A stretch of DNA of 51,865 nucleotides, from positions 1-51,865 of the forward strand of contig CAMVTO010000015.1 of NCBI GenBank assembly GCA_947170435.1, read 5' to 3'. Position numbers and translations under genes: made by a program. How positions within the stretch are numbered: the stretch's first letter is position 1; every line of letters begins with the position of its first letter. The notes beneath the pieces are model-generated. The model did not search any database. It saw only the letters and a list, made by a program, of their open reading frames with translations, and was not told the origin of the DNA. Below are positions 25,056 to 47,995 of the stretch, in pieces. The DNA comes from an uncultured Clostridia bacterium. Its GTDB lineage: Bacteria; Bacillota; Clostridia; Oscillospirales; Oscillospiraceae.

Positions 25056-25070
25056 GATAATTGTTATCCT

Positions 25071-25841: not shown

Positions 25842-25849
25842 CTCATACC

Positions 25850-33753: not shown

Positions 33754-34805
33754 TGCGGTGTGTACGGCTCGATGCCGCCCTCCGCGAACGTATAGGCGTC
33801 CCGGTACACCGCAAGCGCCATGTCCAGCAGCGGCATGGCCGCCACCGCGCCGGTACCCTCGCCGAGACGCATGTCTGCCGTAATGAGCGCCCGCTTGCCG
33901 AGGGCTTTGAGCACCAGCGCCCCCGCAGGCTCCGCGGAGACGTGGCTCGCGAGCATCGCGCCCGCCGCGTCAGGGCACAGCCGCGCGGCACACAGCGCCG
34001 CCACCGTGCTGGGGAAGCCGTCCAGCAGCACCGGCACGCGGTAATACGCCGCGCCGAGGCAGACGCCGCACAGTCCCGCAAGATCGAAGCCGCCCACCTT
34101 GGCGAGCACGTCCACCGCGTCCCACGCCGCGGGGCGATTGGTGGAGACGCCGCGGCGAATGGTCTTGATCTTTCGCTCCAGCGCCTCGTCGGACAGTCCC
34201 GCGCCGCGCCCGGTCACATCCTGCACCGAGCGAGCCAGCAGCACGCTCGCCACCGCCGATGCGGTGGTGGTGTTGCCGATCCCCATTTCACCCAGCGCCA
34301 GCAGCCTTGTGCCGCGGGCGGATTCGTCCCGCACCAGCTCAACGCCAGTCAAAATGGCGCGCTCCGCCTGCTCCCGCGACATGGCGGGGCCGTCGGCAAA
34401 GTCCGCCGTGCCGTTGCCGACGCGGCGATCCAGCACGCCATTGCAGCCGGGGAAATCCGCAATGCCCATATCCACCGGCACAACGCGGCAACGCGCGACC
34501 TCCGCCATGCGGCAGACCGAGGTCTTGCCAAACGCCAGATTCCGCGCCACGGCAGCGGTCACGCCGCTCCCCGTCTGGGTCACGCCGCGCCGCACCACGC
34601 CATTGTCCGCGCAGAGCACCAGCACCGCTTTCTCGCTCAGATCCACCTCCGCGCTCCCGGTCAGTGCCGCGATGTCCTCCACGGCGCGCTCCAGCAGCCC
34701 CAGACTCCCCAGCGGCTTGGCGCAGGCGTTCCACCGCGCCCTCGCTGCCGCGCGGGCGGACTCGTCCGGTGTGGGAACCGCCGCGATGATCTCATGCAAA
34801 TCCAT
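33750..34805 (-). CDS. cobT: Nicotinate-nucleotide:dimethylbenzimidazole phosphoribosyltransferase
   Basis: A 351-residue CobT, which activates the lower-ligand base as its alpha-riboside phosphate. KPLGSLGLLE at the N-terminus, LCADNGVVRRGVTQTG, LALGEMGIGNTTTASA (containing a conserved Glu) and the terminal RLGEGTGAVAAMPLLD are all intact. The start is ATG at 34805, six bases after GGAG; it overlaps cbiA by 14 bases. The base is not known: neither bluB nor bza genes are in the window, so dimethylbenzimidazole may be made elsewhere, scavenged or replaced. Confidence 0.95.
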   Translation of the reverse strand: MDLHEIIAAVPTPDESARAAARARWNACAKPLGSLGLLERAVEDIAALTGSAEVDLSEKAVLVLCADNGVVRRGVTQTGSGVTAAVARNLAFGKTSVCRMAEVARCRVVPVDMGIADFPGCNGVLDRRVGNGTADFADGPAMSREQAERAILTGVELVRDESARGTRLLALGEMGIGNTTTASAVASVLLARSVQDVTGRGAGLSDEALERKIKTIRRGVSTNRPAAWDAVDVLAKVGGFDLAGLCGVCLGAAYYRVPVLLDGFPSTVAALCAARLCPDAAGAMLASHVSAEPAGALVLKALGKRALITADMRLGEGTGAVAAMPLLDMALAVYRDAYTFAEGGIEPYTPQ

Positions 34806-36138
34806 GTGTTTCTCCATATCGTTTTGCCGCGGCCGCAAAGCGTTCCGCCAACGCAGGACGTCCCGCAAAATAGAGGTGCGGGAACGCCGCGTAGAGGGTT
34901 TCGCTCAAAAAGCCGCAGCGCCAGCTTGTGTCATTCTTTTCAACCCGCAGCCCGTCGCCGCACGCGTCACTGTCCCAATGGTGGAATTCATGCGCCGGGA
35001 TCCGTTCCCCCGCGCGAAACAGCAGGCTGTCCGACTCCGCGCACAGCGTCTGATAGCCGAAGCGCACCAGCCGCCCCGCGTTCGCCGCACGCCCGGGCAG
35101 CGCGCCAACCATCGGGTACTCAGTTCCCTTGTCGTCGCGCAGCGCCGCGCCGAGATAGAGGAATCCGCCGCACTCCGCGACGGTGGGCATACCGCTCTCC
35201 ACCGCCGCCCTGATCGACGCGCGCATCCTCTCGTTGGCGGCGAGCGCCGCCGCGTGCAGCTCCGGGTAGCCGCCGGGCAGGTAAAGCCCGCCGATCTCCT
35301 CCGGCAGGGCGTCGTCCGCGAGCGGGCTGAACGGCACGATCTCCGCACCGCAGCACTCCAGCGTCTCCAGCGTCTCCGCGTAAGCAAACGCAAACGCCGC
35401 ATCGGTCGCAACGGCAATGCGCGCCCGCTTCGGCTGCGCCGCCGCAGGTCTGCGCTTCGGCGGACGCCTGTCAAAGATCGCGGCAAATCGCTTCCAATCC
35501 AGCTCCAGCGCCCCGGCAAGGGCGTCGACGCGGCGCTGTAGATCCCCGATCTCCTCCGCCGCGTACAATCCGAGGTGGCGGCTGCTGATCTGCGCCGCCT
35601 CAACGTATGGCAAATACCCCAGAATCGGCACGCCGGACGCCCGCTCCAGCGTTGGGGCGAGCGCGTCATAGAGCCGCCGCGGGCAGCGGTTGAGCAGCAC
35701 GCCCGCAATGTGGCTGTTCTCCCGAAACTGCGCCAGCCCGCGGATCTCCGCCGCCAGCGTCAGGCTCGCGCCGCCGGCGTTCACCACCAGCAGGATCGGT
35801 ATGTCCAGCGTGTCCGCCACATGCCAGGTGCTCGCGCGGTCGCTCACACCGCCGAGCCCGTCGTAGCAGCCCATCACGCCCTCCACCACCGCCGCGTCCT
35901 GTCCCGCGCAGCCGCGCTCATAGAGAGCGCGCACGCAGTCTCCGTCGCTGAAAAACAGGTCGAGGTTATGGCTCTTCGTGCCGAGCACGGCGCGGTGGAA
36001 CGTGGGATCCAGGTAATCCGGCCCCACCTTGAACGCGCAGGGACGCAGCCCCCGCCGCTGCATGGCACGCAGCAGCGCGCAGGTCACGGCGGTTTTGCCG
36101 CCGCCGGAGCGCGGCGCGGCAACGGTCAGTTGGATCAT
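34792..36138 (-). CDS. cbiA: Cobyrinate a,c-diamide synthase
   Basis: A 448-residue glutamine-dependent amidotransferase that amidates the a and c acetates of cobyrinate. The P-loop APRSGGGKTAVT, FKVGPDYLDPTFH and VEGVMGCYDG are typical of CbiA. The glutaminase domain has LYLPGGYPELHAAALAANE and AECGGFLYLG (catalytic Cys), and ends GYQTLCAESDSLLFRAGERIPAHEFHHWD. The start is ATG at 36138, overlapping cbiET by four bases. Gene and length are normal for the family. Confidence 0.96.
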   Translation of the reverse strand: MIQLTVAAPRSGGGKTAVTCALLRAMQRRGLRPCAFKVGPDYLDPTFHRAVLGTKSHNLDLFFSDGDCVRALYERGCAGQDAAVVEGVMGCYDGLGGVSDRASTWHVADTLDIPILLVVNAGGASLTLAAEIRGLAQFRENSHIAGVLLNRCPRRLYDALAPTLERASGVPILGYLPYVEAAQISSRHLGLYAAEEIGDLQRRVDALAGALELDWKRFAAIFDRRPPKRRPAAAQPKRARIAVATDAAFAFAYAETLETLECCGAEIVPFSPLADDALPEEIGGLYLPGGYPELHAAALAANERMRASIRAAVESGMPTVAECGGFLYLGAALRDDKGTEYPMVGALPGRAANAGRLVRFGYQTLCAESDSLLFRAGERIPAHEFHHWDSDACGDGLRVEKNDTSWRCGFLSETLYAAFPHLYFAGRPALAERFAAAAKRYGETHGFA

Positions 36139-37337
36139 GTCGTCTCTCTCCGCTTCGCCGCAATGAGAAACACGGGGTTGTTTGCCATGAGCAAATGCAG
36201 CTCTCCCGCCGCTTTTGCGCGGGAGACGGAAATCTGCGTGATCTCCGCATCCAAATCCCGAAACACCTCCAGCGCGGCGAGGAGCGTCTCCAGCGCGATG
36301 GCGGTCATACACAGCCGCGCATCTGGATTCTTCGTAAGCGCCGCGTCCACGATACCCCGCAGGTTTCCCCCGGAGCCGCCGATAAACACCGCGTCCGGCG
36401 CAGGCAGCTCCCGCAGCGCCTCCGGTGCGGCGCCGCGCACGACGCGCAGGTTCCACGCGCCGAAGCGGCGGCGGTTTTCTTCGATCAGCGCCAGCGCCTC
36501 TTTGTCGCGCTCCACAGCGTAAACCGCACCCTCATCGGCGGTGAGGGCAAGCTCCACGGACACGCTGCCCGTACCCGCGCCCACGTCCCAGATCGTATCG
36601 CCGCGGCGCACGCCGAGGTGCGAGCGGATCGCCGCGCGCACCTCCCGCTTGGTCATCGGCACGCTGCCGCGCACAAAGTCCTCGTCCGCAAGGCCGCCCG
36701 CCGGGATATCCGGGCGCGGTACGGCCTCTGTCAGCAGCACCGAGAGCGGCGCATAGCTTTGTTTCGCCGCCTCCGCCGCGGTAAGTGAGGTGATCGTCTC
36801 CTTCGAGTAGGCGAGGTTTTCCCCCACTGTGACGCGGGTCTCACCCAGCCCCGCCGCCGTCAGCGCGGCGCATAGGGTCGCGGGTGTGTTGACTCCGCCG
36901 GTCAGGAAAAACGCGGGCTTTCCGCGCATGATCGCCGCGATGGGATCGCAGTCCGCGCCATGGGCGGAGCAAAGCGTCCAGTCCTGCCACGCTCTGCCCA
37001 GACGCGCGGCAAGCAGCTGCACGCTCGAAATGCCGGGCAGCACACGGCAGTCAAAGCCCCGCTCCCGCAGCAGCGGCAGCAGCGTTTTCGCGCCGGAATA
37101 GAAGCCCGTGTCGCCGCTGAAGATCACACAGGCGCGCTCCGCCGCTTCCTGCGTCAGCAGCGCCGCGATCTCCTCCGCCCCCACGGCAGCGAAGCGACGC
37201 TGGTCGTCGTTTTCGGGCAGCGCGTCCAACAGGCGCATCGCGCCGATGAGGATCTCCGCGTCCTCGATGGCGTCCCACGCCTCAACGGTCGCGCCCTCCG
37301 GCGTCCCGCCGCCAAAGCCCAGCAAAGTCACCTGCAT
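36135..37337 (-). CDS. cbiET: CbiE-CbiT fusion, cobalt-precorrin C5/C15 methyltransferase and decarboxylase
   Basis: A 400-residue fusion. Residues 1-~205 are CbiE, a class III SAM methyltransferase (LLGFGGGTPEG, FSGDTGFYSGAK, PGISSVQLLAARLG) for C5. Residues ~215-400 are CbiT (DEDFVRGSVPMTKREVRAAI, SAM motif DVGAGTGS at 251-258, FIGGSGGNLRGIV), which methylates C15 and decarboxylates the C12 acetate. Fused forms are also known as CobL. It overlaps cbiJ by ten bases and cbiA by four. Confidence 0.95.
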   Translation of the reverse strand: MQVTLLGFGGGTPEGATVEAWDAIEDAEILIGAMRLLDALPENDDQRRFAAVGAEEIAALLTQEAAERACVIFSGDTGFYSGAKTLLPLLRERGFDCRVLPGISSVQLLAARLGRAWQDWTLCSAHGADCDPIAAIMRGKPAFFLTGGVNTPATLCAALTAAGLGETRVTVGENLAYSKETITSLTAAEAAKQSYAPLSVLLTEAVPRPDIPAGGLADEDFVRGSVPMTKREVRAAIRSHLGVRRGDTIWDVGAGTGSVSVELALTADEGAVYAVERDKEALALIEENRRRFGAWNLRVVRGAAPEALRELPAPDAVFIGGSGGNLRGIVDAALTKNPDARLCMTAIALETLLAALEVFRDLDAEITQISVSRAKAAGELHLLMANNPVFLIAAKRRETT

Positions 37338-38068
37338 CGTCTCAGCTCCTCGATCTCTCGTAAGATGGTTTCCATCGTCTCGCCCGTCTCCTCCGGGCGG
37401 CGCAGCACGATCACCCGCACGCCGCAGGTTCTCGCCGCACGCAGCTTCTCGGGATAGCCGCCCACCGCGCCGCCGTCCTTGGTCACGAGGCAGGCAATGT
37501 TGTACTGCCGCAGCAGCGCCGCGTTCAGTTCCTCGGAAAACGGTCCCTGCATGGCAATGATGTTGCGGTGGGGAAGCCCCGCCGCTTCGCAGGCGGCGAT
37601 GCTCTCGTGCGAGGGCAGCACCCGGACATACAGCCGCTCCCGCGGCAGCGCCGCGAACGCGGGCAGCTCCTTCGCTCCCGTGGTCAGAAGGATGTTTCCC
37701 GCCGTGGCTTGCAGATATGCCGCCGCCTCCGCCGCGTCAGATACCACAGCGGCGCCCTCGGTGTCTCCGGCGTGCCGCAGCAGCCGGCGATAAGGAACGC
37801 CCGCCGCATCGCAGGCGGCCTTGACGCTCCCGGTGATGCTCGTTGCGTAGGGGTGCGTGGCGTCGACGCACAGCGCCGCGGCACGCAGCAGCGCCAGCTT
37901 CTCCGGCTCGCTGCGCCGACCGGTCAGCACCGTCACGCCGGGCACCTCTCCCTGCTCCTCGCGGCCGTAATCCGTGGCGACGCAGACCGTCACCGCGACG
38001 CCGCGCGCCGCCAGTGCCGCGGACAATTCGCGGCTCTCGGTGGTGCCGCCGAAAATCACAACGTTCAT
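37328..38068 (-). CDS. cbiJ: Cobalt-precorrin-6A reductase
   Basis: A 246-residue CbiJ/CobK. The N-terminal nucleotide fold IFGGTTESRELSAAL, the block VDATHPYATSITGSVKAACDAAGVPY and the C-terminal IIAMQGPFSEELNAALLRQYNIACLVTKDGGAVGGYPEKL are diagnostic. It reduces the macrocycle with NADH or NADPH. Its end overlaps the start of cbiET by ten bases; its start overlaps the cbiH stop by four. Length is typical. Confidence 0.95.
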   Translation of the reverse strand: MNVVIFGGTTESRELSAALAARGVAVTVCVATDYGREEQGEVPGVTVLTGRRSEPEKLALLRAAALCVDATHPYATSITGSVKAACDAAGVPYRRLLRHAGDTEGAAVVSDAAEAAAYLQATAGNILLTTGAKELPAFAALPRERLYVRVLPSHESIAACEAAGLPHRNIIAMQGPFSEELNAALLRQYNIACLVTKDGGAVGGYPEKLRAARTCGVRVIVLRRPEETGETMETILREIEELRRCR

Positions 38069-38796
38069 AGCGGCTGATATCCTCTCGGCGTCACCATATA
38101 TTCACCAACTTTTTTTGTCGTGGATGAGCCGATGAACACCGTTGTCACCATATCGACCGCTGTCTCCCGCAGCTCCGCGAGGGTCAGCAGGCGCTTTTCC
38201 TGCCCGTCGCGGCCGATGTTGCGCACCGTGCCGCAGAGCGTATCTGCGCGCCGCGATTCCAGCAGAATGTCGCAGGCGCGCCGCAGATGCTCCGCGCGGC
38301 GTTTGGACGACGGATTGTAGAGCGCGATCGCAAAGTCGCCCTCCCCCGCGCAGCGCAGCCGCTTTTCAATGGCCGCCCACGGCGTCAGCAGATCGCTGAG
38401 CGAGATCACACAGAAGTCGTGTCCCAGCGGCGCGCCCAGCACCGCCGCGCCGGAGAGCGCCGCCGTCACGCCCGCCACGATCTCCGCCTCCACGCCCGGG
38501 TATTCCGGCAGCAGCTCCAAAATCGGCGCCGCCATGCCGTACACCCCCGCGTCGCCGGAGCACACCATCGCGACGGTTTTGCCGCTGCGCGCCTCGGCGA
38601 GGGCGTGACGGCAGCGGTCGATCTCCCGCAGCATGCCGCTGGTGTAGGTCTCTTTTTCGGGATACAGCGGCGCGATCTGCTCCACATAGGCCGTGTAGCC
38701 GCAGATCAGCCCGGCCGCCGAGAGCGCCGCCCGCGCTTCTTCGGTCAGCTGCGCCGGATGCCCCGGCCCCAAGCCGACCACAAACAACTTACCCAT
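38065..38796 (-). CDS. cbiH: Cobalt-factor III C17-methyltransferase
   Basis: A 243-residue class III SAM methyltransferase. CbiH/CobJ identity is given by VVGLGPGHPAQLTEEARAAL, ICGYTAYVEQI, SGDAGVYGMAAPILEL and ALYNPSSKRR. It methylates C17 and drives ring contraction. There is no C-terminal Fe-S or ferredoxin-like extension of the kind seen in longer CbiH60 proteins. It overlaps the CbiF-CbiG gene by eight bases. Confidence 0.95.
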   Translation of the reverse strand: MGKLFVVGLGPGHPAQLTEEARAALSAAGLICGYTAYVEQIAPLYPEKETYTSGMLREIDRCRHALAEARSGKTVAMVCSGDAGVYGMAAPILELLPEYPGVEAEIVAGVTAALSGAAVLGAPLGHDFCVISLSDLLTPWAAIEKRLRCAGEGDFAIALYNPSSKRRAEHLRRACDILLESRRADTLCGTVRNIGRDGQEKRLLTLAELRETAVDMVTTVFIGSSTTKKVGEYMVTPRGYQPL

Positions 38797-40528
38797 TGCC
38801 CTCTCCCCAATTCAATCGCGCCGGCCGCTCCGCCAGCGCGAAGGTCACGCCGTCCCCGGCAAATTTCCGTGCCAGCAGCGCGCCGTTTGCGGACAGTACA
38901 GCCGCGCGCTCACAGACGTTGCTGACGCCTGTTGTCCGTTCCACAAAATCCGAAGCGGTAAACTCCCCTCGGACGGCGGAAAGCTCCTCCGCCGTGTATG
39001 TGCTCAAGCTCCAGCCGTGGTTTGCGCAGAACGCCCGCAGTCCCGGTTCGCTTTCTTTCCAATCAATGCTCGCCGCGTCGGCGATGGCCTCCGGCAGAAT
39101 GCCGGTCTGCTCACAAAACGCGGCAAACCTCGTCTCCAGGATCTCCCGCGTGATCCCCCGGCGGCAGCCGACGCCCAGCGTCAGCGTCCGCGGCACAACC
39201 GTCAAAGCCTCGTGGGGTCGGATATCCACCCAGACGTCAGGCGCGTCGGATTCTGTCAACGCCACGCGCTCCGGCGGCTCGCCCTCAATGGCGTACGCGC
39301 TGCGGACGGTGATCGTTTCACCGGCAAGCAGCTTGCCGGAAACCCTCTTGATCTGCCCCGCGCCTGTCACCGCACAGCCCTGCGTCCGCGCCCAGTCATC
39401 CACCGCGAACACACCGCTGACATCCGTGGCGGTGGTCACGGCGGCAACGCCGCCGGTCAACCGGGCGATCTCCCGCGAGAGCGCGTTCGCGCCGCCGAGA
39501 TGCCCGGAGGCAACGGGGATGACAAACTGTCCGCCCTCGTCCACCGCGATCACAGCGGGGTCACTCACCTTGCTCACGAGGTGCGGCGCGACGGCGCGCA
39601 CAGCGATGCCCGCCGCACCGATGTAGACCAGCGCCCGCGCCGCTGAAAAGCGGGCTGCTGTCCAGTCCTTGAGCTTGACGCCGTCGCGCGTGCAGGCGGC
39701 TTCCCCGCCCAGCGCGCAGCGCAGCGTTTCCGCCAGCGCGCGGCCGCGTTCGGTAAAGGAAAGGTACGCGATCTCCCCGTCCTCGCTGCCCCGGCGATAC
39801 GCCGTCGTAAACGTGGGATCGTAGAGCCTGCTCTTCTCATACGGCGCATCCAGAAACCCGCCGACAAACACCAGCGCGGTCTTGGTGATTTTTTCCGCCG
39901 CGCCCGCCTCCGCCAGTGTGCCCACGGTGCAGCGAACCGTCTTTTCCTCCGGCCACGTCGCCTTGTAGACGATGGCGGCGGGGGTACTTGCCGCAAGTCC
40001 GCCCGCGAGCAGCTCCGATTGCACGCCGTCCAGCAGCCCCGCCGAAAGGAAGATCGCCATGGACGCGCCGTGGCGCGCAAGCTCGCGCAGCCGTTCGCCC
40101 TCCGGCACCGCCGTGCGCCCGGCAAGGCGCGTGACGATCAGACTCTGGCTGACGCCGGGGAGCGTAAACTCCGCACCCAGCGCCGCCGCCGCGCCGAATA
40201 AGCTCGATACGCCCGGCGTCACGTCGCAGTCGATGCCCTTTGCCGAAAGCGCGTCCATCTGCTCGCGGATCGCGCCGTAGAGCGCCGGATCGCCGGTGTG
40301 GAGCCGCACGACGCACTTGTCCGCGCGGCGCTCCATCACAGCCAGCACTTCGTCCAGCGTCATGGCCGCGCTGTTGTAAACCTCGCAGCCGTCCTTGCAC
40401 CGCGCGAGCAGCGCGGGATTCACAAGGCTCCCCGCGTAGATCACCACGTCTGCCTGCTCCAGCAGCGCAGCGCCCCGCACCGTGATGAGATCGGGCGCTC
40501 CCGGCCCCGCGCCGACAAAATGCACCAT
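38789..40528 (-). CDS. cbiFG: CbiF-CbiG fusion, C11-methyltransferase and delta-lactone hydrolase
   Basis: A 579-residue fusion. About 1-250 is CbiF (cobalt-precorrin-4 C11-methyltransferase): VHFVGAGPGAPDLITVRG, YAGSLVNPALL, HTGDPALYGA, TPGVSSLFGAAA. From ~255 it is CbiG, which opens the delta-lactone and releases the C20 unit: YIGAAGIAVRAVAPHL, DPAVIAVDEGGQFVIPVASGHLGGAN, and the C-terminal GVGCRRGITREI..ASIDWKESEPGLRAFC. The two act one after the other in the anaerobic route, so fusion makes sense. The start is ATG at 40528, nine bases after GGAG; a TTG at 40543 is possible but less likely. Confidence 0.94.
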   Translation of the reverse strand: MVHFVGAGPGAPDLITVRGAALLEQADVVIYAGSLVNPALLARCKDGCEVYNSAAMTLDEVLAVMERRADKCVVRLHTGDPALYGAIREQMDALSAKGIDCDVTPGVSSLFGAAAALGAEFTLPGVSQSLIVTRLAGRTAVPEGERLRELARHGASMAIFLSAGLLDGVQSELLAGGLAASTPAAIVYKATWPEEKTVRCTVGTLAEAGAAEKITKTALVFVGGFLDAPYEKSRLYDPTFTTAYRRGSEDGEIAYLSFTERGRALAETLRCALGGEAACTRDGVKLKDWTAARFSAARALVYIGAAGIAVRAVAPHLVSKVSDPAVIAVDEGGQFVIPVASGHLGGANALSREIARLTGGVAAVTTATDVSGVFAVDDWARTQGCAVTGAGQIKRVSGKLLAGETITVRSAYAIEGEPPERVALTESDAPDVWVDIRPHEALTVVPRTLTLGVGCRRGITREILETRFAAFCEQTGILPEAIADAASIDWKESEPGLRAFCANHGWSLSTYTAEELSAVRGEFTASDFVERTTGVSNVCERAAVLSANGALLARKFAGDGVTFALAERPARLNWGEGNG

Positions 40529-40530
40529 GG

Positions 40531-42672
40531 TCACTTGCTCCAATCGTTCAAAATCGCTTCCGCCGTCTCGGTTTTCCCCAGCAGGCCATATTCGTTGGAA
40601 AACGTCACCGCGCCCACGCGCAGCCTGTCCCCCACGCGGCGCGTAAGCTGCCGCTGCATGGCGGCCAGCAGGCTTGCAAGCACCGGCTCGCGAAGTCCCG
40701 CACCGTCCAGTATCGCGATGCAGGCGTCGGTGGTGGCGGCGTCCATCAGCGCGCGGCAGGTGGCCGCGTCCGCACCGCAGAGCGCCGCGTGGGCGGTAAA
40801 GAGCTCGGTGCGGCAGTCAGCGTACTTAGAGTGCGTATTCATGATCCCGCCCGCGAGCTTCGCCAGCTTGCCGATGTGCCCCACCAGCAGCGCCTCCCGA
40901 TAGCCCATCGTCACCGCGAGATCCAGCGCGTCGCCGAGGAAGTTGGAATACTTGACGCTCGGTATATTGTGCGGATTCCATCCGCTTTCCAGCAGGAAGT
41001 CCGCGCCGTAGTTCCCCGGCGTCAGAATGATCCGCTCCGCGCCCTCGGCACGTTTTTGGCGCAGCTCGGTTTCGATGGTATCCACAACGGCCTGTTCGCT
41101 CATCGGCTCCACAATGCCGGAAGTGCCGAGGATCGAGATGCCGCCCTCGACGCCCAGCATCGGATTGAAGGTCTTTTTCGCCAGCGCCGCGCCGTCCGGC
41201 ACGGAGATCACGATGGACAACCCGTCGGCATACCCCGTCTCGGCGCAGACCGCCTCCGCCGCCTCCGCGATCATACGGCGCGGCACGGTGTTGATCGCCG
41301 CCGCGCCAATCGGCTGATCCAGTCCGGGCCTTGTCACGCGGCCAACGCCCTCGCCGCCGTCCACGGTGATGTCCCCCGCCGCGGCGCGCACCGTGGCACA
41401 GATCAGGCAGCCGTCGGTAACGTCGGGGTCGTCCCCCGCATCCTTGCGTACAGCGGCAACCGCCGCGTCGCCGACGCGCTCGCAGCGCGTGAGCGGCACC
41501 GTGACCGGCGTTCCGTTGGGCGTGATCAGCCGCGCGCTCTCCGGCGCCTCGCCCGTCAGCAGCAGCCGCGCCGCGGCCCCCGCCGCCAGCGCCGCGCAGG
41601 TTCCGGTGGTAATTCCCCGGCGCAGGAGCTTCTGTCCGCTGTGAACGCGGCCGCCGCGCGCCGCCAGCGCCGCGATCTCTGGATAGCGGGCCAATACCTT
41701 GTCGTAGTTCTCCCGCCGGTGCGGGAAATTGCAGTCGATGCAGCTCTTGCTGCCCTTTTCGGTATAGTGAAAGTTCCCGCCGCACGCTTCGCCCAGCGCA
41801 TAGAGCGGGCAATAGCAGAACAGGCAGTTGAACGCCTCCTCCGCCACGCCGCCGTGGCAGGGGAACTTTTCGCAATCACGGTTTTGGAAAAAGGCGTAGG
41901 CCCTCTCCGGTTTGTTTCGTCCCGAGAACCCAGCGTAAGCGCCTCGCGGCAGATCGTAGAGGGTTTCGATGTTTTCGTCGGTCAGCACAGCCTCCGGTGC
42001 GCCGGCGCGCTGCACCGCGCCGTCCTTCACGCAGACCACCGTGTCGGACACGCGCCGCGCCAGCGGCAGCTCGTGGAGCGTCAGCAGCACAGCAAGACGC
42101 TGCGTGCGGCTCAGCTCCTCCAGAAGATCCAGCAGCTCCAGTTGATAGCGTATGTCCAGGTACGCCGTCGGCTCATCCAGCACCAGCACCTCCGGCTCCT
42201 GACACAGCGCACGGGCGAGCAGCACCCGCTGGCGCTGTCCGTCGCTCAGCGCGGTGAAGTCCCGCTCCGCGAGATCTTCGATGTGCAGCCGCGCGAGCGC
42301 CGCCGCCGTCACCTCGCGGTCGCGCTCGGAGAGCATCCCCAGCGTCCCCGTGTAGGGGTAGCGTCCCAGGCTCACCACATCCCGCACCGTCAGCCGGTCT
42401 GTGCGCAGGTGCTCGGTGGTGAGGATCGACAGACGCCGCGCCAGCTCATTGGGTGAGAGCGTTTCCATGGCCCGCTCACCCAGGTATACCGTCCCCGCCA
42501 AGGGCGCGAGCTGCCGGGAGATCGCACGCAGCAGCGTGGACTTGCCCGCGCCGTTGGGACCGACCAGCGTTACGATCTCCCCCGCGCGAACGGTGAAGCT
42601 CACGTCGCGCACCACGGCACGGCCGCCGTAGCCCGCGGACAGGTCGCGGGCGTGCAGAACGATTTCCTTCAT
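40531..42672 (-). CDS. cbiD: ABC ATPase / Cys-rich domain / CbiD triple fusion
   Basis: A 713-residue protein in one frame with three parts. Residues 1-~250 are a BtuD/FecE-type ABC ATPase: Walker A GPNGAGKST (38-46), signature LSDGQ (142-146), Walker B EVLVLDEPTA (161-170), switch His200. Residues ~256-330 are a Cys-rich small domain (C267, C272, C283, C286, C288, C297, C311, C314; FNCLFCYCPLY and CIDCNFPHRR). Residues ~348-713 are CbiD, cobalt-precorrin-5B C1-methyltransferase (LRRGITTGTCAALAAGAAA, TVDGGEGVGRVTRPGL, ILGTSGIVEPMSE, LVGHIGKLAKLAGGIMNTHS). The start at ATG 42672 overlaps the permease stop by four bases. A transport motor is thus joined to a biosynthetic enzyme. Confidence 0.9.
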   Translation of the reverse strand: MKEIVLHARDLSAGYGGRAVVRDVSFTVRAGEIVTLVGPNGAGKSTLLRAISRQLAPLAGTVYLGERAMETLSPNELARRLSILTTEHLRTDRLTVRDVVSLGRYPYTGTLGMLSERDREVTAAALARLHIEDLAERDFTALSDGQRQRVLLARALCQEPEVLVLDEPTAYLDIRYQLELLDLLEELSRTQRLAVLLTLHELPLARRVSDTVVCVKDGAVQRAGAPEAVLTDENIETLYDLPRGAYAGFSGRNKPERAYAFFQNRDCEKFPCHGGVAEEAFNCLFCYCPLYALGEACGGNFHYTEKGSKSCIDCNFPHRRENYDKVLARYPEIAALAARGGRVHSGQKLLRRGITTGTCAALAAGAAARLLLTGEAPESARLITPNGTPVTVPLTRCERVGDAAVAAVRKDAGDDPDVTDGCLICATVRAAAGDITVDGGEGVGRVTRPGLDQPIGAAAINTVPRRMIAEAAEAVCAETGYADGLSIVISVPDGAALAKKTFNPMLGVEGGISILGTSGIVEPMSEQAVVDTIETELRQKRAEGAERIILTPGNYGADFLLESGWNPHNIPSVKYSNFLGDALDLAVTMGYREALLVGHIGKLAKLAGGIMNTHSKYADCRTELFTAHAALCGADAATCRALMDAATTDACIAILDGAGLREPVLASLLAAMQRQLTRRVGDRLRVGAVTFSNEYGLLGKTETAEAILNDWSK

Positions 42673-43649
42673 GGCCGCGCCTCCTTTTTGCGGGATAAGA
42701 GCATCCACACCACCACCGGCGCGCCGAAGATGGCGGTCACAGAGCCAATGGCCAGCTCCGTCGGCGCAAAGACCGTCCGCGCGATCAGGTCGCAGCCGAG
42801 GCAGAACACCGCCCCGCCCAGAAAGCAGGACGGCACCATCACGATGGGCTTCGCCGTACCCAGCAGCCGCCGCATGAGATGCGGCACCGCCACGCCCACA
42901 AAGGACACCGGCCCCGCGAACGCCGTCACGCAGGCGGAGAGCACGCTGGAAAGCAGAATCAGCTGCCAGCGGAACGAGCGCAGGTTTACGCCCATGTTGC
43001 GCGCGTAGCTCTCCCCCAGCTGATAGGCGCTCATGGGCTTGGAAAGCAGCACGCTCCACGCAAGTCCCGCGATCACGAGGGGCACAATGAAGCGCAGGTT
43101 CGCCCAGCTGATGCCGGAAAAGCTGCCGAGCGACCACGAGCGCAGGTTTACGATATTGGAGTCGTCCGCAAACGTCACGACCAGATCGGTGACCGCGGAG
43201 CAAATGTACCCCACCATGACGCCGCAGACCACCAGCAAGGACATCTGCTTTACCCTGCCGGAGATCAGCAGGATCGCGCCCATCACCAGCAGCGATCCCG
43301 CGAACGCGGCGGCGTACAGTCCCGCGGAGCCGACGGCGACGCCGCGCGAGAGCAGCAGCACCATCGTGAGCGCCACGGTCAGCTTCGCTCCCGATGACAC
43401 GCCGAGCACAAACGGCCCCGCGATGGGGTTCGCGAAAAACGTTTGCAGCAGAAAACCGGACACCGCCAGCGCGCCGCCCAGCAGCGCCGCGGACAGCATC
43501 CGCCGCAGCCGAAGATCCACGATCCGCGCGGCGTAGTCCTCCGCGCCCCGGAGCGAGACGCTGCCCACCGCGAGGCTCAAGGCGCCCAGCGCCAAAAGCA
43601 AAAGGGTGAGCAGCGAAAAGGCAAGCGCGCAGCGCGTCTGTCGTTTCAT
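42669..43649 (-). CDS. FecCD/BtuC-type ABC permease
   Basis: A 326-residue permease with about ten helices, of the type that imports vitamin B12, haem or iron-siderophores. Typical segments are RLRRMLSAALLGGALAVSGFLLQTFFANPIAGPFVLGVSSGAKL, GVMVGYICSAVTD, SWSLGSFSGISWANL and FVGVAVPHLMRRLLG (the ATPase contact loop lies between the last two). It is 32 bases after the binding-protein gene and overlaps the ATPase-CbiD gene by four bases. Operon context favours corrinoid or cobalt-tetrapyrrole uptake; the family fold alone does not fix the substrate. Confidence 0.92.
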   Translation of the reverse strand: MKRQTRCALAFSLLTLLLLALGALSLAVGSVSLRGAEDYAARIVDLRLRRMLSAALLGGALAVSGFLLQTFFANPIAGPFVLGVSSGAKLTVALTMVLLLSRGVAVGSAGLYAAAFAGSLLVMGAILLISGRVKQMSLLVVCGVMVGYICSAVTDLVVTFADDSNIVNLRSWSLGSFSGISWANLRFIVPLVIAGLAWSVLLSKPMSAYQLGESYARNMGVNLRSFRWQLILLSSVLSACVTAFAGPVSFVGVAVPHLMRRLLGTAKPIVMVPSCFLGGAVFCLGCDLIARTVFAPTELAIGSVTAIFGAPVVVWMLLSRKKEARP

Positions 43650-43681
43650 GGCCGATCACCCCTTTGTGTGGTTTTCTCTGA

Positions 43682-44791
43682 TTATATCAGCTTGCGGAGA
43701 TAGGTCAACTCCGCCTTCTCTGTTCCGGTCAGCACAGCGTGGAAATCCGCGATCATGCCGCCGACGGCGGAGGTCTCCTGAAAAAGATTCTTCTCCGTCA
43801 CCCAGACGCTGCCGGTCTGCACCGCCTTGAAGTCCGCAAACATCTCGTTTGCCGCGAGCAGCTGCGCGAGGGATTCCATCGGGTAGATCGTGCCGTTGTA
43901 GATCAGCACGTCCGCGTCCCGCGCCCCGGCGTAAAACGCCTCAAACTGCATGTTGAGCGTGGAGAGATTGTTGTCCTCCCCCTCCAGCTCCGCCGGGACG
44001 TACACGCCGCCCGCGAGGGCGATCATCTTCGAGAGGTAGTCCCCCGGGCGGCGCACATTGACATAGCCGTTGGGGCTTACATAGAATACCGCCGCGGTCG
44101 TGCCCGTGCTCTCGGCGGCGAGGATATCTGCCAGCGCGGCGGTCTGCGCGTCGAAGTACGCCTCCGCCTCCGCCGCCTTGCCCACCAGCAGACCGTAGAG
44201 CTTGATCCACTCCAGCCGTCCCAGCGGGTGGGATTCGTAGCTGGAGCGCTCGACCATCGTCGGGATGCCCAGCGCCTCCAGCTGCTCCCGCGTGGCGGGG
44301 CTGTGGAGGATCATCGTATTCTCCACAGCGAACGAGCAGCCCTCGGCCAGCAGCAGCTCATAATCCGGCGCACGGTATTTGCCCGCGTACAGGATCTCCC
44401 CCGCGTCCACGGCCTGCGCCACCTCGGGGATGCTCCACTCCGCCGCAGCCGTGCCGGTGAAGCGCACTGCGTCCAGCGCGTCCAGCCTGCAAAGCGGATC
44501 CATCGCGGATGAGGACGCAAGATAGATGTGATCGAGCGGCGTGTGCAGCACCGTCGCGTCCGCGATGTCGGGCGCTTCCGCGCCGACGGGGACGAGGAGA
44601 TACCGCTCTTCCCCCGCGATCGTCACCAGCGCCGCGTCGCCGTAGTAATCCACGGTGAACTGCTCGGCGTAAGCAAGCTCCATGCCGCCGGTCGGCCGCG
44701 GTTCGTTTGCCGCCGGCTCCGCCGGATGCTGCGCGCAGGCCGTCAGCAGCAGCAGCGCACAGAGCAGCGCGGCAAGAAACTTTCTTACCAT
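43682..44791 (-). CDS. BtuF/FecB-like substrate-binding lipoprotein
   Basis: A 369-residue lipoprotein (lipobox LLLTAC, Cys19) with the two-lobed, rigid-helix fold of class III binding proteins. Landmarks are DYYGDAALVTIAGEERYLLVPVG, LDHIYLASSSAMDPLCRLDALDAVRFTG, PTMVERSSYESHPLGRLEWIKLYGLLVGKAAEAEAYF and YLSKMIALAGGVYVP. The length exceeds a minimal BtuF. It presents the ligand to the permease encoded next. It overlaps the upstream lipoprotein gene by seven bases. The ligand is probably a corrinoid or metal tetrapyrrole, inferred from the operon. Confidence 0.9.
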   Translation of the reverse strand: MVRKFLAALLCALLLLTACAQHPAEPAANEPRPTGGMELAYAEQFTVDYYGDAALVTIAGEERYLLVPVGAEAPDIADATVLHTPLDHIYLASSSAMDPLCRLDALDAVRFTGTAAAEWSIPEVAQAVDAGEILYAGKYRAPDYELLLAEGCSFAVENTMILHSPATREQLEALGIPTMVERSSYESHPLGRLEWIKLYGLLVGKAAEAEAYFDAQTAALADILAAESTGTTAAVFYVSPNGYVNVRRPGDYLSKMIALAGGVYVPAELEGEDNNLSTLNMQFEAFYAGARDADVLIYNGTIYPMESLAQLLAANEMFADFKAVQTGSVWVTEKNLFQETSAVGGMIADFHAVLTGTEKAELTYLRKLI

Positions 44792-45699
44792 TGGTGCGTC
44801 TGAAGCGTCGCGGAGTCGAAGGTCAGCGTGTACTCGATCTCATAGGGCTGGCTCATGGCGGTGGTGTCCGCGACCACCGCAAGCGGGCGGTCAAACGCCG
44901 CAACGGGAATGGTGAACACGGAATGACCGTTGCCGATCTCCGCGTCGTATCGCACGCCGTCCACCAGCATATAATCGTAATTCGCGCTGCTCCAGGTGAT
45001 CTGCGCCGTCACCGCGCCGTCCTTGACCAGCAGAAACGCCTGCTCGTCCACGCTCGCCTTGCCGGAGCCGCCCGCAAGCGTCACGTCACAAACATACGGG
45101 CCGTCGGCAAGGCCGAGGCTCTCCGCCGTGGTCAGCGTCTCAAACGCCGCCAACGGCAGGGAGTCGCTGCGGAACACCAGCGTACGGTCGTACCACAGCT
45201 CCTTGCTGCGGCTCCACGCCGCGCAGTCGATCTGCTGATCCAGCGCCGCAAGCGGAAACACGAACGTGCCGACGCCGTTTTCCACCGCGGGCGCGATGTA
45301 GTCCGCCGCGTCCGCGGCGGCTGCCTCCTCGGCGGTGCCGAGGTAGAGATAGCCGTAGCTGTCGCTGCTCATGATGAGCTTGACCGTCATCGCGTCGCCG
45401 CCGACGGTCAGCTCGCAGTCTGTGATCTTGAACATGGACGAGCTGCTGTCGACGTTGATGTTGTAAACGCCGTCGACAAGCGCAGAGGCGGAAACGGGCG
45501 TCATGCCCTCGCTCCCCACGCTCTCCACCGTCGTCATCTGGGACACGTCCGCCACGGCGGAGGTGTTGCTTTCCGCAGTCTCCGCCGGTACCGGCTGCTC
45601 CGCAGGGGCAGCCTCCCGCGCCGTCTGCGCGGCGCAGCCCGTCAGCAGGCAAAGCGCCAGCAGCGCCGCGGCCCCTTGCTTTTTCCCATTACATTTCAT
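44785..45699 (-). CDS. Lipoprotein with two NEAT-like repeats
   Basis: A 304-residue lipoprotein (lipobox CLLTGC, Cys22), then a low-complexity linker to about residue 65 and two repeats of about 115 residues. The first begins DGVYNINVDSSSSMFKITDC, the second DGPYVCDVTLAGGSGKASVD. Both continue with a T-x-KL/QITWSS-x-x-Y strand pair ('MSSDSYGYLYLG', 'WSSANYDYMLVDG') and a PV/LAALD-type strand, the layout of NEAT-like beta sandwiches that bind haem. No function has been proven for this protein. Between a membrane-anchored chelatase and a binding protein, a role in capturing a tetrapyrrole or corrinoid at the surface is likely. Confidence 0.75.
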   Translation of the reverse strand: MKCNGKKQGAAALLALCLLTGCAAQTAREAAPAEQPVPAETAESNTSAVADVSQMTTVESVGSEGMTPVSASALVDGVYNINVDSSSSMFKITDCELTVGGDAMTVKLIMSSDSYGYLYLGTAEEAAAADAADYIAPAVENGVGTFVFPLAALDQQIDCAAWSRSKELWYDRTLVFRSDSLPLAAFETLTTAESLGLADGPYVCDVTLAGGSGKASVDEQAFLLVKDGAVTAQITWSSANYDYMLVDGVRYDAEIGNGHSVFTIPVAAFDRPLAVVADTTAMSQPYEIEYTLTFDSATLQTHQW

Positions 45700-46708
45700 T
45701 CATAGCCTCCTGTGTGTGCGCGATATAGAGCTGCTGGATCGACGCAAGACTGCCAAGTCCCTCCAGAACGCACTCGACCTCATAGTCCGCCGCCTCGAAC
45801 ATGCTCTTCCAGCTGTCCTCGTCGTCGCCCGCCATATCGTTGTTTGCGTGGTCACCCGCGACCACCATCAGCGGGCGCAGCACGACGCGCTGATAGCTGC
45901 CCATCTGCACCGCCGCGAGCACGTCCTCCACGGTGGGGAACGCCTCGACGGTGCCGATGAAGTAGTTTTCCATACCCTTTTCGTCCAGCACGCCCTGCAT
46001 CTGCTCATAGACGCCGTTGGAATCCGCCTCGGTGCCGTGGCCCATGAACACGATGGCGGTCCCGCCGTCGTCATACTGCTCGGTTGCTGCCACGATGGCG
46101 TCCGCCACCGCGTCGAAGTCGCTGTCGGTTTGCAGCAGCGGCGCGGCGATCTTGATCTTCTCGAACGCGTCGGCATAGCCCACGACTTCGGAGATGATGT
46201 CGTTGTACTCAAAGCCGTCCATCAGGTGCGTCGGCACCACCAGCAGCTCCTTGACGCCGTTATTGACCGCGCGCTCCAGCGCCTCGGTCACGTTGTCGAT
46301 GACCTCGCCGTCGCGGGACTTCACATGGTCAATGATGATCTGGCTGGTGAAAGCGCGGCGGACGCTCCAATCGGGGAACGCCTCCGCCAGCGCGTCCTCG
46401 ATCGCGCCGATGGTGAGGCGGCGGCTGTCGTTGTAGCTGGTGCCGAAGCTCACCACCAGCAGCTCCTTGTCGCCGATCTCGTCCTGATTGCGGGGGTTAT
46501 CCAGCGAGGCGTCGCCGGTGGTATAGTCCTCGTCGTCCGCTTCCTCAACGGTGCTCTCCGCAGGCTCTTCCTGCTTGACTTCCTCCTGCTTGACTTCCTC
46601 CTGCGCCGGAGTCTCCTCCGCACTCGTGTCTGTCTTGCCGCCCGCGCAGCCGGTCAACAGTCCGCAGGCCATCGTCAGTGCCAGCACACATGCCATCATT
46701 TTTTTCAT
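45689..46708 (-). CDS. cbiK: Lipoprotein-type sirohydrochlorin cobaltochelatase
   Basis: A 339-residue CbiK with an export signal: lipobox LLTGC (Cys21), then an acidic Glu-rich linker (22-~78) and the chelatase domain (~82-339). The metal-site histidines lie in VVPTHLMDGFEYND and VFMGHGTEADSNG, as in CbiK/CbiX chelatases; KELLVVSFGTSYNDSRRLTIGAIE opens the domain. Ordinary CbiK is cytosolic and inserts Co2+ into sirohydrochlorin. An exported form resembles the periplasmic CbiK of Desulfovibrio. Here it would sit on the outer membrane face, so it may load or strip metal from an external tetrapyrrole. The start is ATG at 46708 after AAAGGAAG. It is the first gene of the riboswitch-controlled unit. 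Confidence 0.9.
   Translation of the reverse strand: MKKMMACVLALTMACGLLTGCAGGKTDTSAEETPAQEEVKQEEVKQEEPAESTVEEADDEDYTTGDASLDNPRNQDEIGDKELLVVSFGTSYNDSRRLTIGAIEDALAEAFPDWSVRRAFTSQIIIDHVKSRDGEVIDNVTEALERAVNNGVKELLVVPTHLMDGFEYNDIISEVVGYADAFEKIKIAAPLLQTDSDFDAVADAIVAATEQYDDGGTAIVFMGHGTEADSNGVYEQMQGVLDEKGMENYFIGTVEAFPTVEDVLAAVQMGSYQRVVLRPLMVVAGDHANNDMAGDDEDSWKSMFEAADYEVECVLEGLGSLASIQQLYIAHTQEAMNEM
46571..46600. repeat. Two tandem copies of a 15-base unit in cbiK
   Basis: CTGCTTGACTTCCTC is repeated exactly twice, encoding the EEVKQ/EEVKQ linker that tethers the chelatase domain to its lipid anchor. Slippage here would change linker length in frame. Confidence 0.85.
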
Positions 46709-46738: not shown

Positions 46739-46782
46739 CCGTCTGCCGAAGCAGATCAAAAAAACCCGTCTGCCGAAGCAGA
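46739..46782. repeat. Direct repeat of a terminator-stem sequence
   Basis: CCGTCTGCCGAAGCAGA occurs at 46739-46755 and again at 46766-46782, 27 bases apart. On the minus strand the upstream copy is the working terminator; the second forms a 5-bp UUCG hairpin just before the cbiK ribosome binding site. It looks like a local duplication in the riboswitch expression platform. Confidence 0.8.
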
Positions 46783-46786
46783 CGGG
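46758..46786 (-). terminator. Riboswitch-controlled terminator before cbiK
   Basis: On the minus strand, CCCGTCTGC-TTCG-GCAGACGGG is followed by seven T. It lies between the cobalamin aptamer and the cbiK start, the expected place for a B12-dependent transcriptional off switch. Confidence 0.88.
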
Positions 46787-46826: not shown

Positions 46827-46858
46827 CTTGAACGCGGTTTCCGGTTCCGGCAGAAACG

Positions 46859-46968
46859 CCGACAGCCTCAGGTATTCTGACTCATCCGCCCATCGCGGCA
46901 TCACAGTGACCGACTCGCGGGGCTTCGCACCCCATTCCCCCTGCCGCCCGAAGCGGCGAGGCCTGTCG
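46859..46968 (-). promoter_or_regulatory. Cobalamin riboswitch controlling the cbi unit
   Basis: Read on the minus strand, the leader has the core GGCAGGGGGAATGGGGTGCGAAGCCCCGCG...GTCACTGTGATG, and near its 3' end the B12-box-like GAGTCAGAATACCTGAGGC. The outer helix pairs CGACAGGCCTC (46958-46968) with GAGGCTGTCG (about 46859-46868). A promoter precedes it and a terminator follows, so cobalamin binding should stop transcription of the whole downstream unit. Confidence 0.93.
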
Positions 46969-46984
46969 TTATTCGGTTGGTTTC

Positions 46985-47017: not shown

Positions 47018-47884
47018 TTATGCCGGATTGACGTGGATCATGATGTGTTTGACCTGCGGAAACGCGGCTTCCACGTCGTTGTGTACCTGTTCGGCAATCG
47101 CGTGAGCGTCTGCAAGGGGCAGCTGCCCGTCCACGGAAATCTCCAGCTCAATGTAAACGCGGTTGCCGAACTCGCGCGTGCGCAGCAGGTCGATGTGCTC
47201 CACGCCGTCATGACCCATGACGCAGCCGCGGATGGCACGCTCCGTCGCCTCGTCGCAGCTGTGATCCACCATTTTATCCACCGCGTCGCGGAAGATGTCG
47301 ATTGCCGCCTTGCCGATGAACACGCAGATCACCACGCTCGAGAGCGGGTCGAGGATCGGATAGCCCAGCCGCGCTCCGCCGATGCCCAGCAGCGCGCCCA
47401 CCGAGGACAGCGCGTCGCTGCGGTGGTGCCAGGCGTCCGCCATCAGCGCCTCGGAGTCCATCTGCCGCGCGTAGTGGCGGGTGTACCAGAACATCCCCTC
47501 CTTGACCGCGATGGACAGCAGCGCGGCGAGAAGCGCCGCGACGCCCGGCACCGGCAAATCCTCGCGGTGCACGATCTTCTCAATGCCGCTCCAGCCCACC
47601 AGCAGGCCGGTGCCCATCAGGATCGCCGAGAGCACGATGGCGGCGACGCACTCCATGCGCTCGTGACCGTAGGGATGCTCCCGATCGGACGCCTTTTCCG
47701 ACGCCTTGACGCCGATCATCACGATGACGGTGCTCACCACGTCCGACGCGGAGTGGATGGCGTCGGACACCATGGCGCCGGAGCGGGCGAGCACGCCCGC
47801 GAGCAGCTTGACGGCGCTCAGCAATACGTTCGCGGCGATGCTGTGCCGCGAGACGCGCATGGTGAGCTGTGTTCGATTCTCCAT
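47018..47884 (-). CDS. Cation diffusion facilitator, likely Co2+/Ni2+ exporter
   Basis: A 288-residue CDF transporter with six helices and a C-terminal cytosolic domain (VDKMVDHSCDEATERAIRGCV to the end). Metal-site motifs lie in helix 2 (AMVSDAIHSASDVVST) and helix 5 (MADAWHHRSDALSSVG), with HPYGHERMEC between. CDF proteins export divalent metals in exchange for protons. A NiCo riboswitch in its leader points to cobalt and nickel as the inducers, and so probably the substrates. The start is ATG at 47884, six bases after GGGAGG. It sits directly upstream of the cobalt-using cobalamin unit on the same strand. Confidence 0.93.
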   Translation of the reverse strand: MENRTQLTMRVSRHSIAANVLLSAVKLLAGVLARSGAMVSDAIHSASDVVSTVIVMIGVKASEKASDREHPYGHERMECVAAIVLSAILMGTGLLVGWSGIEKIVHREDLPVPGVAALLAALLSIAVKEGMFWYTRHYARQMDSEALMADAWHHRSDALSSVGALLGIGGARLGYPILDPLSSVVICVFIGKAAIDIFRDAVDKMVDHSCDEATERAIRGCVMGHDGVEHIDLLRTREFGNRVYIELEISVDGQLPLADAHAIAEQVHNDVEAAFPQVKHIMIHVNPA

Positions 47885-47896
47885 ACAGTACCTCCC

Positions 47897-47988
47897 AAAA
47901 AGAAAAACACCCGCGGAACACGCTGTCCCGTAGATGTTGTCTACTGTCACGGATGTGACCCGGCTCCCAAGGGCCTGCTCAGTTGTTA
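47897..47988 (-). promoter_or_regulatory. NiCo (czcD) riboswitch
   Basis: On the minus strand the leader reads AACTGAGCAGGC...GCCGGG...GTAGACAACATCTACGGGACAG, matching the conserved junction of the czcD/NiCo aptamer. An alternative helix pairs 47948-47956 (ACATCCGTG on the RNA) with 47907-47915 (CGCGGGTGT) and is followed by TTTTTCTTTT, a terminator that aptamer folding would break. Metal binding should therefore turn the exporter gene on. Confidence 0.93.
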
Positions 47989-47995
47989 TAGTGCC

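Follow-up and report, generated by a model that had tools for sequence, protein, structure and literature searches.

A CbiK-NEAT lipoprotein module in gut and rumen Clostridia as a candidate surface salvage system for an early cobalamin precursor

Why should a cobaltochelatase of the cobalamin pathway carry an export signal, and what could it do outside the membrane? This question is raised by contig CAMVTO010000015.1 of an uncultured Clostridia bacterium of the Oscillospiraceae (assembly GCA_947170435.1), of which a stretch of 51,865 nucleotides is taken as the window. Five core genes are found there (40531-46708, all on the minus strand, CbiK first), and an earlier note, made from the letters alone, had read them as three consecutive lipoproteins, a BtuC-like permease and an ATPase-CbiD fusion, all of which were confirmed in place. 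The answer favoured here, which the sequence data make probable, is that an early cobalt-free cobalamin precursor (factor II or III) is salvaged at the surface, metallated outside and imported into a truncated pathway. In other words, many gut and rumen bacteria without ring-making genes have a conserved set of surface proteins which probably take hold of a preformed ring externally, load cobalt into it there and then import it so that the vitamin can be completed.

First of all, the chelatase itself is considered. P0001 (45689..46708, lipobox LLTGC) matches Pfam PF06180 at 266.5 bits (E 3e-79; cut-off 26.2), while it reaches 228.6 bits with the NCBIfam equivalog NF047852, under the cut-off of 400. 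Its best sequence matches in the PDB are FetB of Porphyromonas gingivalis (9b86, 7.4e-43; we take FetB to be IhtB, with the Iht transporter), CbiK (1qgo, 9.5e-43) and CbiKP (2xvx, 3.1e-36). The two catalytic-type histidines and the glutamate are all present in P0001, and among 42 exported CbiK domains 40 keep the His145-type residue, 41 the Glu and 41 the His207-type residue, so the histidines are intact in nearly all relatives as well, as the earlier note had read them here. The classical enzyme is cytosolic, whereas the lipobox of P0001 predicts attachment outside. An export signal was likewise predicted in 74 of 76 relative CbiKs (a lipobox in 68, another signal peptide in 6), the remaining 2 being cut by the contig end; a simple pattern script was used for the relatives, and the lipoboxes of the window were also read by eye. 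Moreover, in L045:8468-10462 and L048:6303-8201 (L numbers are loci and G numbers genomes), CbiK, three SLH repeats (E 4.6e-28 and 2.3e-25, respectively) and a NEAT-like stretch lie on one chain, and these SLH-fused cobaltochelatases are probably anchored to the S-layer or wall. The outside location proposed by the earlier note is supported by these predicted signals and fusions. In L040, a single open reading frame (ORF) reads CbiK-CbiK-NEAT. CbiK-NEAT fusions are cited only where the protein itself was inspected, the automated fusion count being unreliable owing to overlapping genes.

The chelatase does not travel alone. When named genomes were scanned, at least 563 relatives of the second lipoprotein, P0002, came to light, and the 80 closest by NEAT similarity were analysed, all from clostridial groups except one labelled only Bacillota. 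In 76 of these 80 loci a CbiK gene immediately precedes the NEAT gene; BtuF was found in 73 loci, BtuC in 66 and BtuD in 65, several contigs ending within the gene set. In a family sample of 150 genomes, relatives of P0002 occur in 30, reduced to 28 (NEAT+) by the removal of G061 and G143, in which the matches are confined to the first 103 and 66 residues, respectively; in these 28 they are often accompanied by CbiK, BtuF, BtuC, BtuD and cbi genes. The recurrence of the gene set exceeds chance, and the members are conserved together. Since CbiK and NEAT share exported chains in some loci and keep their adjacency, the two very likely work together outside the membrane.

As for descent, 41 exported CbiK rows form one clade in the tree (SH-aLRT 100), placed among clostridial CbiKs, which fits the exported form having arisen once from a clostridial CbiK. 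FetB and CbiKP form a separate pair (97), where long branches meet and the pairing is unsure, and membership of the exported CbiKs in that FetB/CbiKP clade is ruled out by the tree. A divergent CbiK-NEAT fusion with long EPAE-rich repeats was also seen in L056:7956-9512 (G084), in which the catalytic residues are lost; no HemB or CbiL matches were found in G084, and this protein is perhaps a pure binding protein.

What, then, would be bound outside? P0002 (44785..45699, lipobox LLTGC) carries two repeats homologous to each other, which the earlier note had called NEAT-like, and the NEAT beta-sandwich fold was found for it, the fold matches being haem-bound proteins. Its match to PF05031 (NEAT) is below the cut-off (E 0.021); PF05031 matches at E <= 1 were obtained in 52 of 57 family members (best 2.6e-11), and L040 passes the cut-off (36.1 vs 32.8). 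In sequence searches of PDB chains, P0002 and its profile each retrieved a single match no better than chance (E 1.5 and 1.6), so the NEAT identity of P0002 rests on the fold. YxxxY is the haem motif of NEAT domains. Read at motif level and not aligned to structure, the last-strand [H/Y]xxxY motif of the family has His as its first residue in 44 of 57 members and Tyr in 13, with Tyr at the second position in all 57; in P0002 the first residue is Tyr.

The third lipoprotein, P0003 (43682..44791, lipobox LLTAC; PF01497 (Peripla_BP_2) 4.1e-26), is a substrate binder of the FecB/BtuF/HmuT fold, and its profile matches the PDB entries 5joq (Lmo2184, 1.4e-8), 4ovk (3.3e-4) and 2q8p (IsdE, 0.002). 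Lmo2184 is presumably HupD, a haem binder. Together, the NEAT fold and the profile matches to Lmo2184 (best) and IsdE (third) point to a tetrapyrrole as the substrate class. Next comes a BtuC/FecCD-type permease, P0004 (42669..43649; PF01032 (FecCD) 3.7e-72), and then a fusion of a BtuD-type ATPase, a zf-like segment and CbiD (40531..42672; ABC_tran 3.9e-32, PF04071 2.2e-24, CbiD 3.2e-92). The importer resembles BtuFCD, the B12 importer, in belonging to the same transporter superfamily and in that the BtuC model NF003001 is the best NCBIfam match of the permease. It differs in falling below the cut-offs for BtuC (211 vs 334) and for the corrinoid-ATPase equivalog NF007082 (214.4, cut-off 537), and in being accompanied by a chelatase and a NEAT protein. 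In L055:1-1584 (G060), an ORF open at the contig start encodes multiple NEAT-like repeats with a membrane anchor at the C terminus and is followed by BtuF-BtuC-BtuD; no CbiK was seen on the inspected stretch of that contig.

In the haem uptake systems Isd and Hbp-Hup of Firmicutes, NEAT proteins pass a tetrapyrrole to a lipoprotein binder and a FecCD-type importer. The present set shares with them the NEAT fold and the binder profile matches, but here a chelatase belongs to the set, a cobalamin riboswitch leader precedes it, and the first motif residue is mostly His. Haem scavenging has to be weighed, in which surface CbiK would de-chelate haem or exchange its metal, as has been proposed for P. 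gingivalis FetB/IhtB, NEAT and the binder would carry haem, and the gain would be iron or porphyrin. FetB as the best PDB match of CbiK (tied with Salmonella CbiK), the haem-bound fold matches and the binder profile speak for it, and IhtB is called a putative ferrochelatase/reverse ferrochelatase in the available text of PMC13227078. However, cobalamin riboswitches stand in front of the genes, which are linked to cbi genes; among genomes that make corrins, the module goes with missing HemB and CobA; and the exported clade has its place within the clostridial CbiKs and not with FetB and CbiKP. Haem scavenging is accordingly held to be unlikely. Of the two directions that the earlier note left side by side, insertion or removal of the metal, insertion of cobalt seems the more likely.

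The control elements lead back to cobalamin. A cobalamin-riboswitch-like leader lies at 46850..46979 on the minus strand (RF00174, 23.3 bits, below the gathering threshold of 31.5; E 5.6e-4), and between it and cbiK an intrinsic-terminator-like hairpin with a T run was read from the sequence (46758..46786, minus strand). Among 14 relative loci scanned, a cobalamin riboswitch above the cut-off stands directly upstream of CbiK in 10; it is below the cut-off or missing in L148, L149, L150 and L153, which are among the nearest relatives of the window. The same riboswitch, together with the BtuCD-type transporter, could suggest an importer of corrinoids (B12 or cobinamide), with exported CbiK serving some other purpose, for instance to bind cobalt or a cobalt complex, and the CobT, CobU, CbiB- and CbiP-type genes of the operon could serve to remodel what is imported. 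Yet the catalytic residues of CbiK are conserved, and CbiK is duplicated or NEAT-fused in some loci; the corrin-ring genes are kept (in the window, all but CbiL), which would be needless if a corrinoid were imported; and, by established chemistry, a corrin already filled with cobalt leaves nothing for a chelatase to do. On balance, a corrinoid importer is improbable. Regarding the ligands that the earlier note had listed as candidates, an early isobacteriochlorin is more likely than B12 or cobinamide.

Metal genes also adjoin the operon. Directly upstream of it on the same strand lies a gene for a cation diffusion facilitator (CDF, metal efflux; 47018..47884, TIGR01297 E 6.3e-70), which is itself preceded by a NiCo (nickel/cobalt) riboswitch (47921..47992, minus strand; RF02683, 49.4 bits, gathering 37). 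The same pair (47018-47992 in the window) was also found in the same-genus L149. The CDF gene is possibly part of cobalt handling, and the cobalt that it exports could even supply the outside chelatase. With these neighbours, cobalt acquisition might be considered, an external tetrapyrrole or CbiK itself acting as a 'cobaltophore' whose complex is imported mainly for the metal; control by B12 would fit cobalt uptake as well. Such a reading leaves the absence of HemB, HemC and CobA unexplained, however, and a NiCo riboswitch with a CDF gene indicates efflux of excess metal rather than shortage, so that it is given very little weight.

The genes that the host genomes lack are the central result. 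In the 150-genome sample, gene sets were entered by hand and then tallied, and CbiK was assigned as exported or cytosolic-type by eye. CbiL is present in 50 of these genomes, among which HemB occurs in 8 of 21 NEAT+ vs 25 of 29 NEAT- (Fisher p 7e-4); restricted to the 30 that are at least 90% complete, the figures are 5 of 11 vs 17 of 19 (p 0.028). HemB was also found in 27 of the 29 CbiL+ genomes with a cytosolic-type CbiK vs 6 of the 21 without one (p 2e-6). In seven corrin-gene genomes of at least 90% completeness (G003, G031, G036, G064, G080, G130 and G144), no HemB, HemC or CobA was found. Six of these seven carry exported CbiK (G144 has no CbiK match, its contig starting in a weak NEAT match), six keep CbiL, and in none was a cytosolic-type CbiK or a real CbiX seen. 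Within genus g65, G064 has the exported module and no HemB was seen in it; in G143, HemB is present together with a cytosolic-type CbiK.

In the genome of the window (G000) and its congener G080 (100% complete), no HemB, HemC, CobA over the cut-off, CbiL, separate CbiX or second CbiK was found, HemA, HemL and HemD not having been searched there. Both have the corrin genes except CbiL and no HemB, HemC or CobA was found, a gene content like that of tetrapyrrole precursor salvagers. Their tetrapyrrole methylases are CbiF, CbiH and CbiE plus one match elsewhere, which we take to be of RsmI type, and CbiC is present.

Similar results were obtained in the named set, where HemB and CobA were checked in the genomes of 50 of the 80 loci, those with longer contigs and isolates being picked first and the other 30 left out. 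HemB was found in 12, CobA over the cut-off in 16 (all 12 HemB+ genomes included) and a sub-cut-off match of CbiF strength in 49. HemB is absent in 38 of the 50, and HemB and CobA are both absent in 34; a CbiF-type corrin methyltransferase match occurs in 33 of these 34, the exception being G183. Two isolates, Evtepia gabavorous and Ruminococcus flavefaciens 007c, belong to this group of 33. CbiL is present in the Evtepia gabavorous locus. Where exported CbiK and HemB occur together, 6 of 9 genomes also have a cytosolic-type CbiK (G011, G029, G046, G048, G083 and G138), and a second, cytosolic-type CbiK was not found in G033, G085 and G142. A separate CbiX was sought in 34 genomes; convincing matches came from just two, the HemB+ genomes G007 and G098, and the weak ones fall in CbiK frames.

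Where the steps from CbiL to CbiP are kept without synthesis of uroporphyrinogen III and sirohydrochlorin, a ring has to be taken up at the sirohydrochlorin stage. Salvage of an earlier ring, uroporphyrinogen or a porphyrin, with the later steps in the cytosol, would suit G050, G081, G115, G160, G181, G189 and G198, in which CobA is kept without HemB, and stool has been reported to contain uroporphyrin (Shelton et al., PMC6461909, in the text available). But the 34 of 50 carriers without both CobA and HemB would be unable to use uroporphyrinogen, and this alternative is very unlikely.

Salvage at the isobacteriochlorin stage is thus the simplest reading, since the cobaltochelatase, the enzyme needed at this stage, is predicted to lie outside together with a tetrapyrrole-type binder and an importer behind a B12 riboswitch. 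The protein families, the export or anchoring signals, the conservation, the regulation and the absent upstream genes are what the sequences support. In the proposed course of events, the NEAT-type lipoprotein on the external side of the membrane would capture an isobacteriochlorin released by other microbes, namely sirohydrochlorin (factor II) or, in the lineage of the window, possibly factor III, which is methylated at C20. The CbiK lipoprotein, beside NEAT or in some relatives fused to it, would insert Co2+ outside; the FecB/BtuF-type lipoprotein would hand the metallated ring to the BtuC/BtuD importer; and in the cytosol, the Cbi enzymes of the same operon would complete the corrin, the B12 riboswitch turning the operon off once cobalamin suffices. 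In this scheme we infer which substrate is bound, which way the chelatase works, in what order the ring is handed on, and that one and the same compound passes through the ABC transporter. The suggestion of the earlier note that the set captures a tetrapyrrole outside, acts on its metal at the surface and imports it into the cobalamin pathway gains support from the conservation, the export signals and the lack of de novo tetrapyrrole genes in most carriers tested, which keep corrin genes.

Several observations weigh against this proposal. First, no CbiL was found in G000, G080 and G033, although CbiC and later corrin genes are present, and in their operon cbiF comes directly after cbiD, with no cbiL at the place that it occupies in L188 and L216. 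Plain sirohydrochlorin would therefore not suffice there, and the genus of the window and G033 would need the C20-methylated ring (factor III), or another enzyme would have to do the CbiL step. Second, the module is not confined to salvagers: HemB occurs in 10 of the 28 NEAT+ sample genomes, and G033 has HemB, HemC and CobA yet only exported CbiK. Third, four CbiL+ genomes lack both HemB and NEAT, of which G003 has exported CbiK, G068 and G128 have cytosolic-type CbiK and CobA, and G103 (68% complete) has no CbiK; moreover, G113 (82% complete) and G127 (67%) are without HemB and have both CbiK types. Fourth, the binder resembles in its fold proteins for siderophores, haem and B12 alike, so the fold does not decide the ligand, and for FetB, an exported relative of CbiK, the text available of PMC13402209 gives protoporphyrin as the compound acted on. 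In addition, the counts have their own bounds: the Fisher tests of module against HemB ignore kinship, many genomes are metagenome-assembled, G000 is 88% complete, completeness figures are not given for the 50 named-locus genomes, and the choice of the 80 loci by closest NEAT similarity favours conserved context.

A donor side is also possible. In some, mostly HemB+, genomes an ABC-2 type transporter lies near NEAT-like genes, with an ATPase nearest to DrrA and a permease matching PF01061 (E 1.1e-20). In L051 and L054 it is part of the ring-making cluster, along with a membrane-anchored NEAT protein. The order in L051 is HemA/HemB-HemL-HemC-CobA/HemD-CbiL-ABC ATPase-ABC-2 permease-cytosolic CbiK-membrane-anchored NEAT, and L054 resembles it, without such a CbiK but with SirC. 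Homologues of the L051 permease (62-89% identity) were found in six further genomes among the loci examined, namely G113, G138, G142, G085, G163 and that of L196. The loci concerned are L051:4250-10081, L054:8672-14001, L053:1417-4022, L166:14898-16980, L037/L225, the end of L196 and the start of L046. The exporter directly follows CbiL in L051, L054 and L037/L225 and not in L053 or L166, L046 being cut there; in L196 it follows exported CbiK and NEAT. HemB is present in 5 of the 6 tested exporter genomes (seven in all), the one without it being G113 at 82% completeness. Export is presumed to be the direction of transport from the ABC-2 type. A two-sided trade may then tentatively be imagined, doubtful as it is at present, in which donors make an isobacteriochlorin such as factor II or factor III and export it through a dedicated ABC-2 exporter, its genes lying within or next to those for the ring, near a NEAT gene and often CbiL, and acceptors with the module and without ring synthesis take it up; acceptors without CbiL, as in the genus of the window, would live on the product of CbiL.

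How far is such a system new? The parts have known precedents, and the function would be new if shown; in the open-licence literature, as far as its text was available, no description was found of an exported CbiK module linked to NEAT, nor of an importer for precursors at the sirohydrochlorin level. The earlier note had spoken of a candidate for an undescribed system, and this holds in part: exported CbiK relatives precede it in Porphyromonas (FetB/IhtB) and in Desulfovibrio, while the NEAT-linked clade is separate. The periplasmic CbiKP of D. vulgaris is similar in that its solved structure is among the best matches of P0001, and differs in grouping with FetB and not with the clostridial exported clade. 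We take CbiKP to be the cbiK product of a Desulfovibrio operon under a B12 element, in a host that makes its own ring. An operon of this kind, cbiK-cbiL and btuCDF under one B12 element, is described for Desulfovibrio in the accessible part of PMC545781. FetB/IhtB of P. gingivalis is alike as an exported CbiK-family chelatase, but it is discussed for protoporphyrin and haem in the available text of PMC13227078 and PMC13402209, and it lies on a separate branch of the tree.

If the favoured reading is true, a biosynthetic metallation step is relocated outside the cell, and incomplete B12 may serve the gut community as a common resource, which would explain feeding on the precursors of neighbours. 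It would then be misleading to call these genomes outright B12 producers, or to call the genes plain haem or B12 uptake. P. gingivalis is without the steps to precorrin-2 according to Shelton et al. (PMC6461909), whose accessible text also describes tetrapyrrole precursor salvagers, primarily Firmicutes, which possess the corrin and loop genes but not those for the earliest tetrapyrrole steps, and whose dependence on 5-aminolevulinic acid (ALA) was tested. For a like reason, P. gingivalis is reportedly called an enigma in the title of Roper et al. (2000). Unlike the present proposal, the accessible text of Shelton et al. names no importer or surface chelatase for them, and uptake beyond ALA is unnamed in it; the module, if its function is as proposed, would supply the importer. 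It thereby offers a testable answer in gut and rumen Clostridia, cultured isolates included.

The rest of the operon, also on the minus strand, runs on from the ATPase-CbiD fusion as follows: a CbiF-CbiG fusion (38789..40543; TIGR01465 1.4e-96), CbiH (38065..38796; TIGR01466 1.7e-91), CbiJ (37328..38068; TIGR00715 2e-52), a CbiE-CbiT fusion (36135..37337; TIGR02467 1.5e-39, TIGR02469 5.1e-34), CbiA (34792..36138; NF002204 9.8e-132), CobT (33750..34868; TIGR03160 1.9e-105) and CobU (33208..33753; PF02283 3.6e-30). It continues with a CobC-type phosphatase (31537..32136; TIGR03162 9e-32, below the cut-off), CbiB (30578..31603; PF03186 2.9e-102), a CobD-type aminotransferase (29532..30644; PF00155 2.9e-44) and a CbiP-type amidotransferase (28069..29607; PF07685 2.7e-57), the latter two named by context, and ends with CbiC, the last operon gene seen (27440..28072; PF02570 3.1e-72). 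CobS was not recognised among the scanned operon genes; the label was tried for the frame 32133-33260, which adjoins the intact CobU, and was dropped as unsupported, the only match there being the end of CobU.

Two further observations were made around the module. In the same-genus genome of L149, two tandem c-di-GMP-I riboswitches lie near it (L149:4379-4711). In the window, an SLH-domain protein (18911-20254) and two glycoside hydrolase family 32 genes (23580-27301) were seen, which are unrelated to the module.

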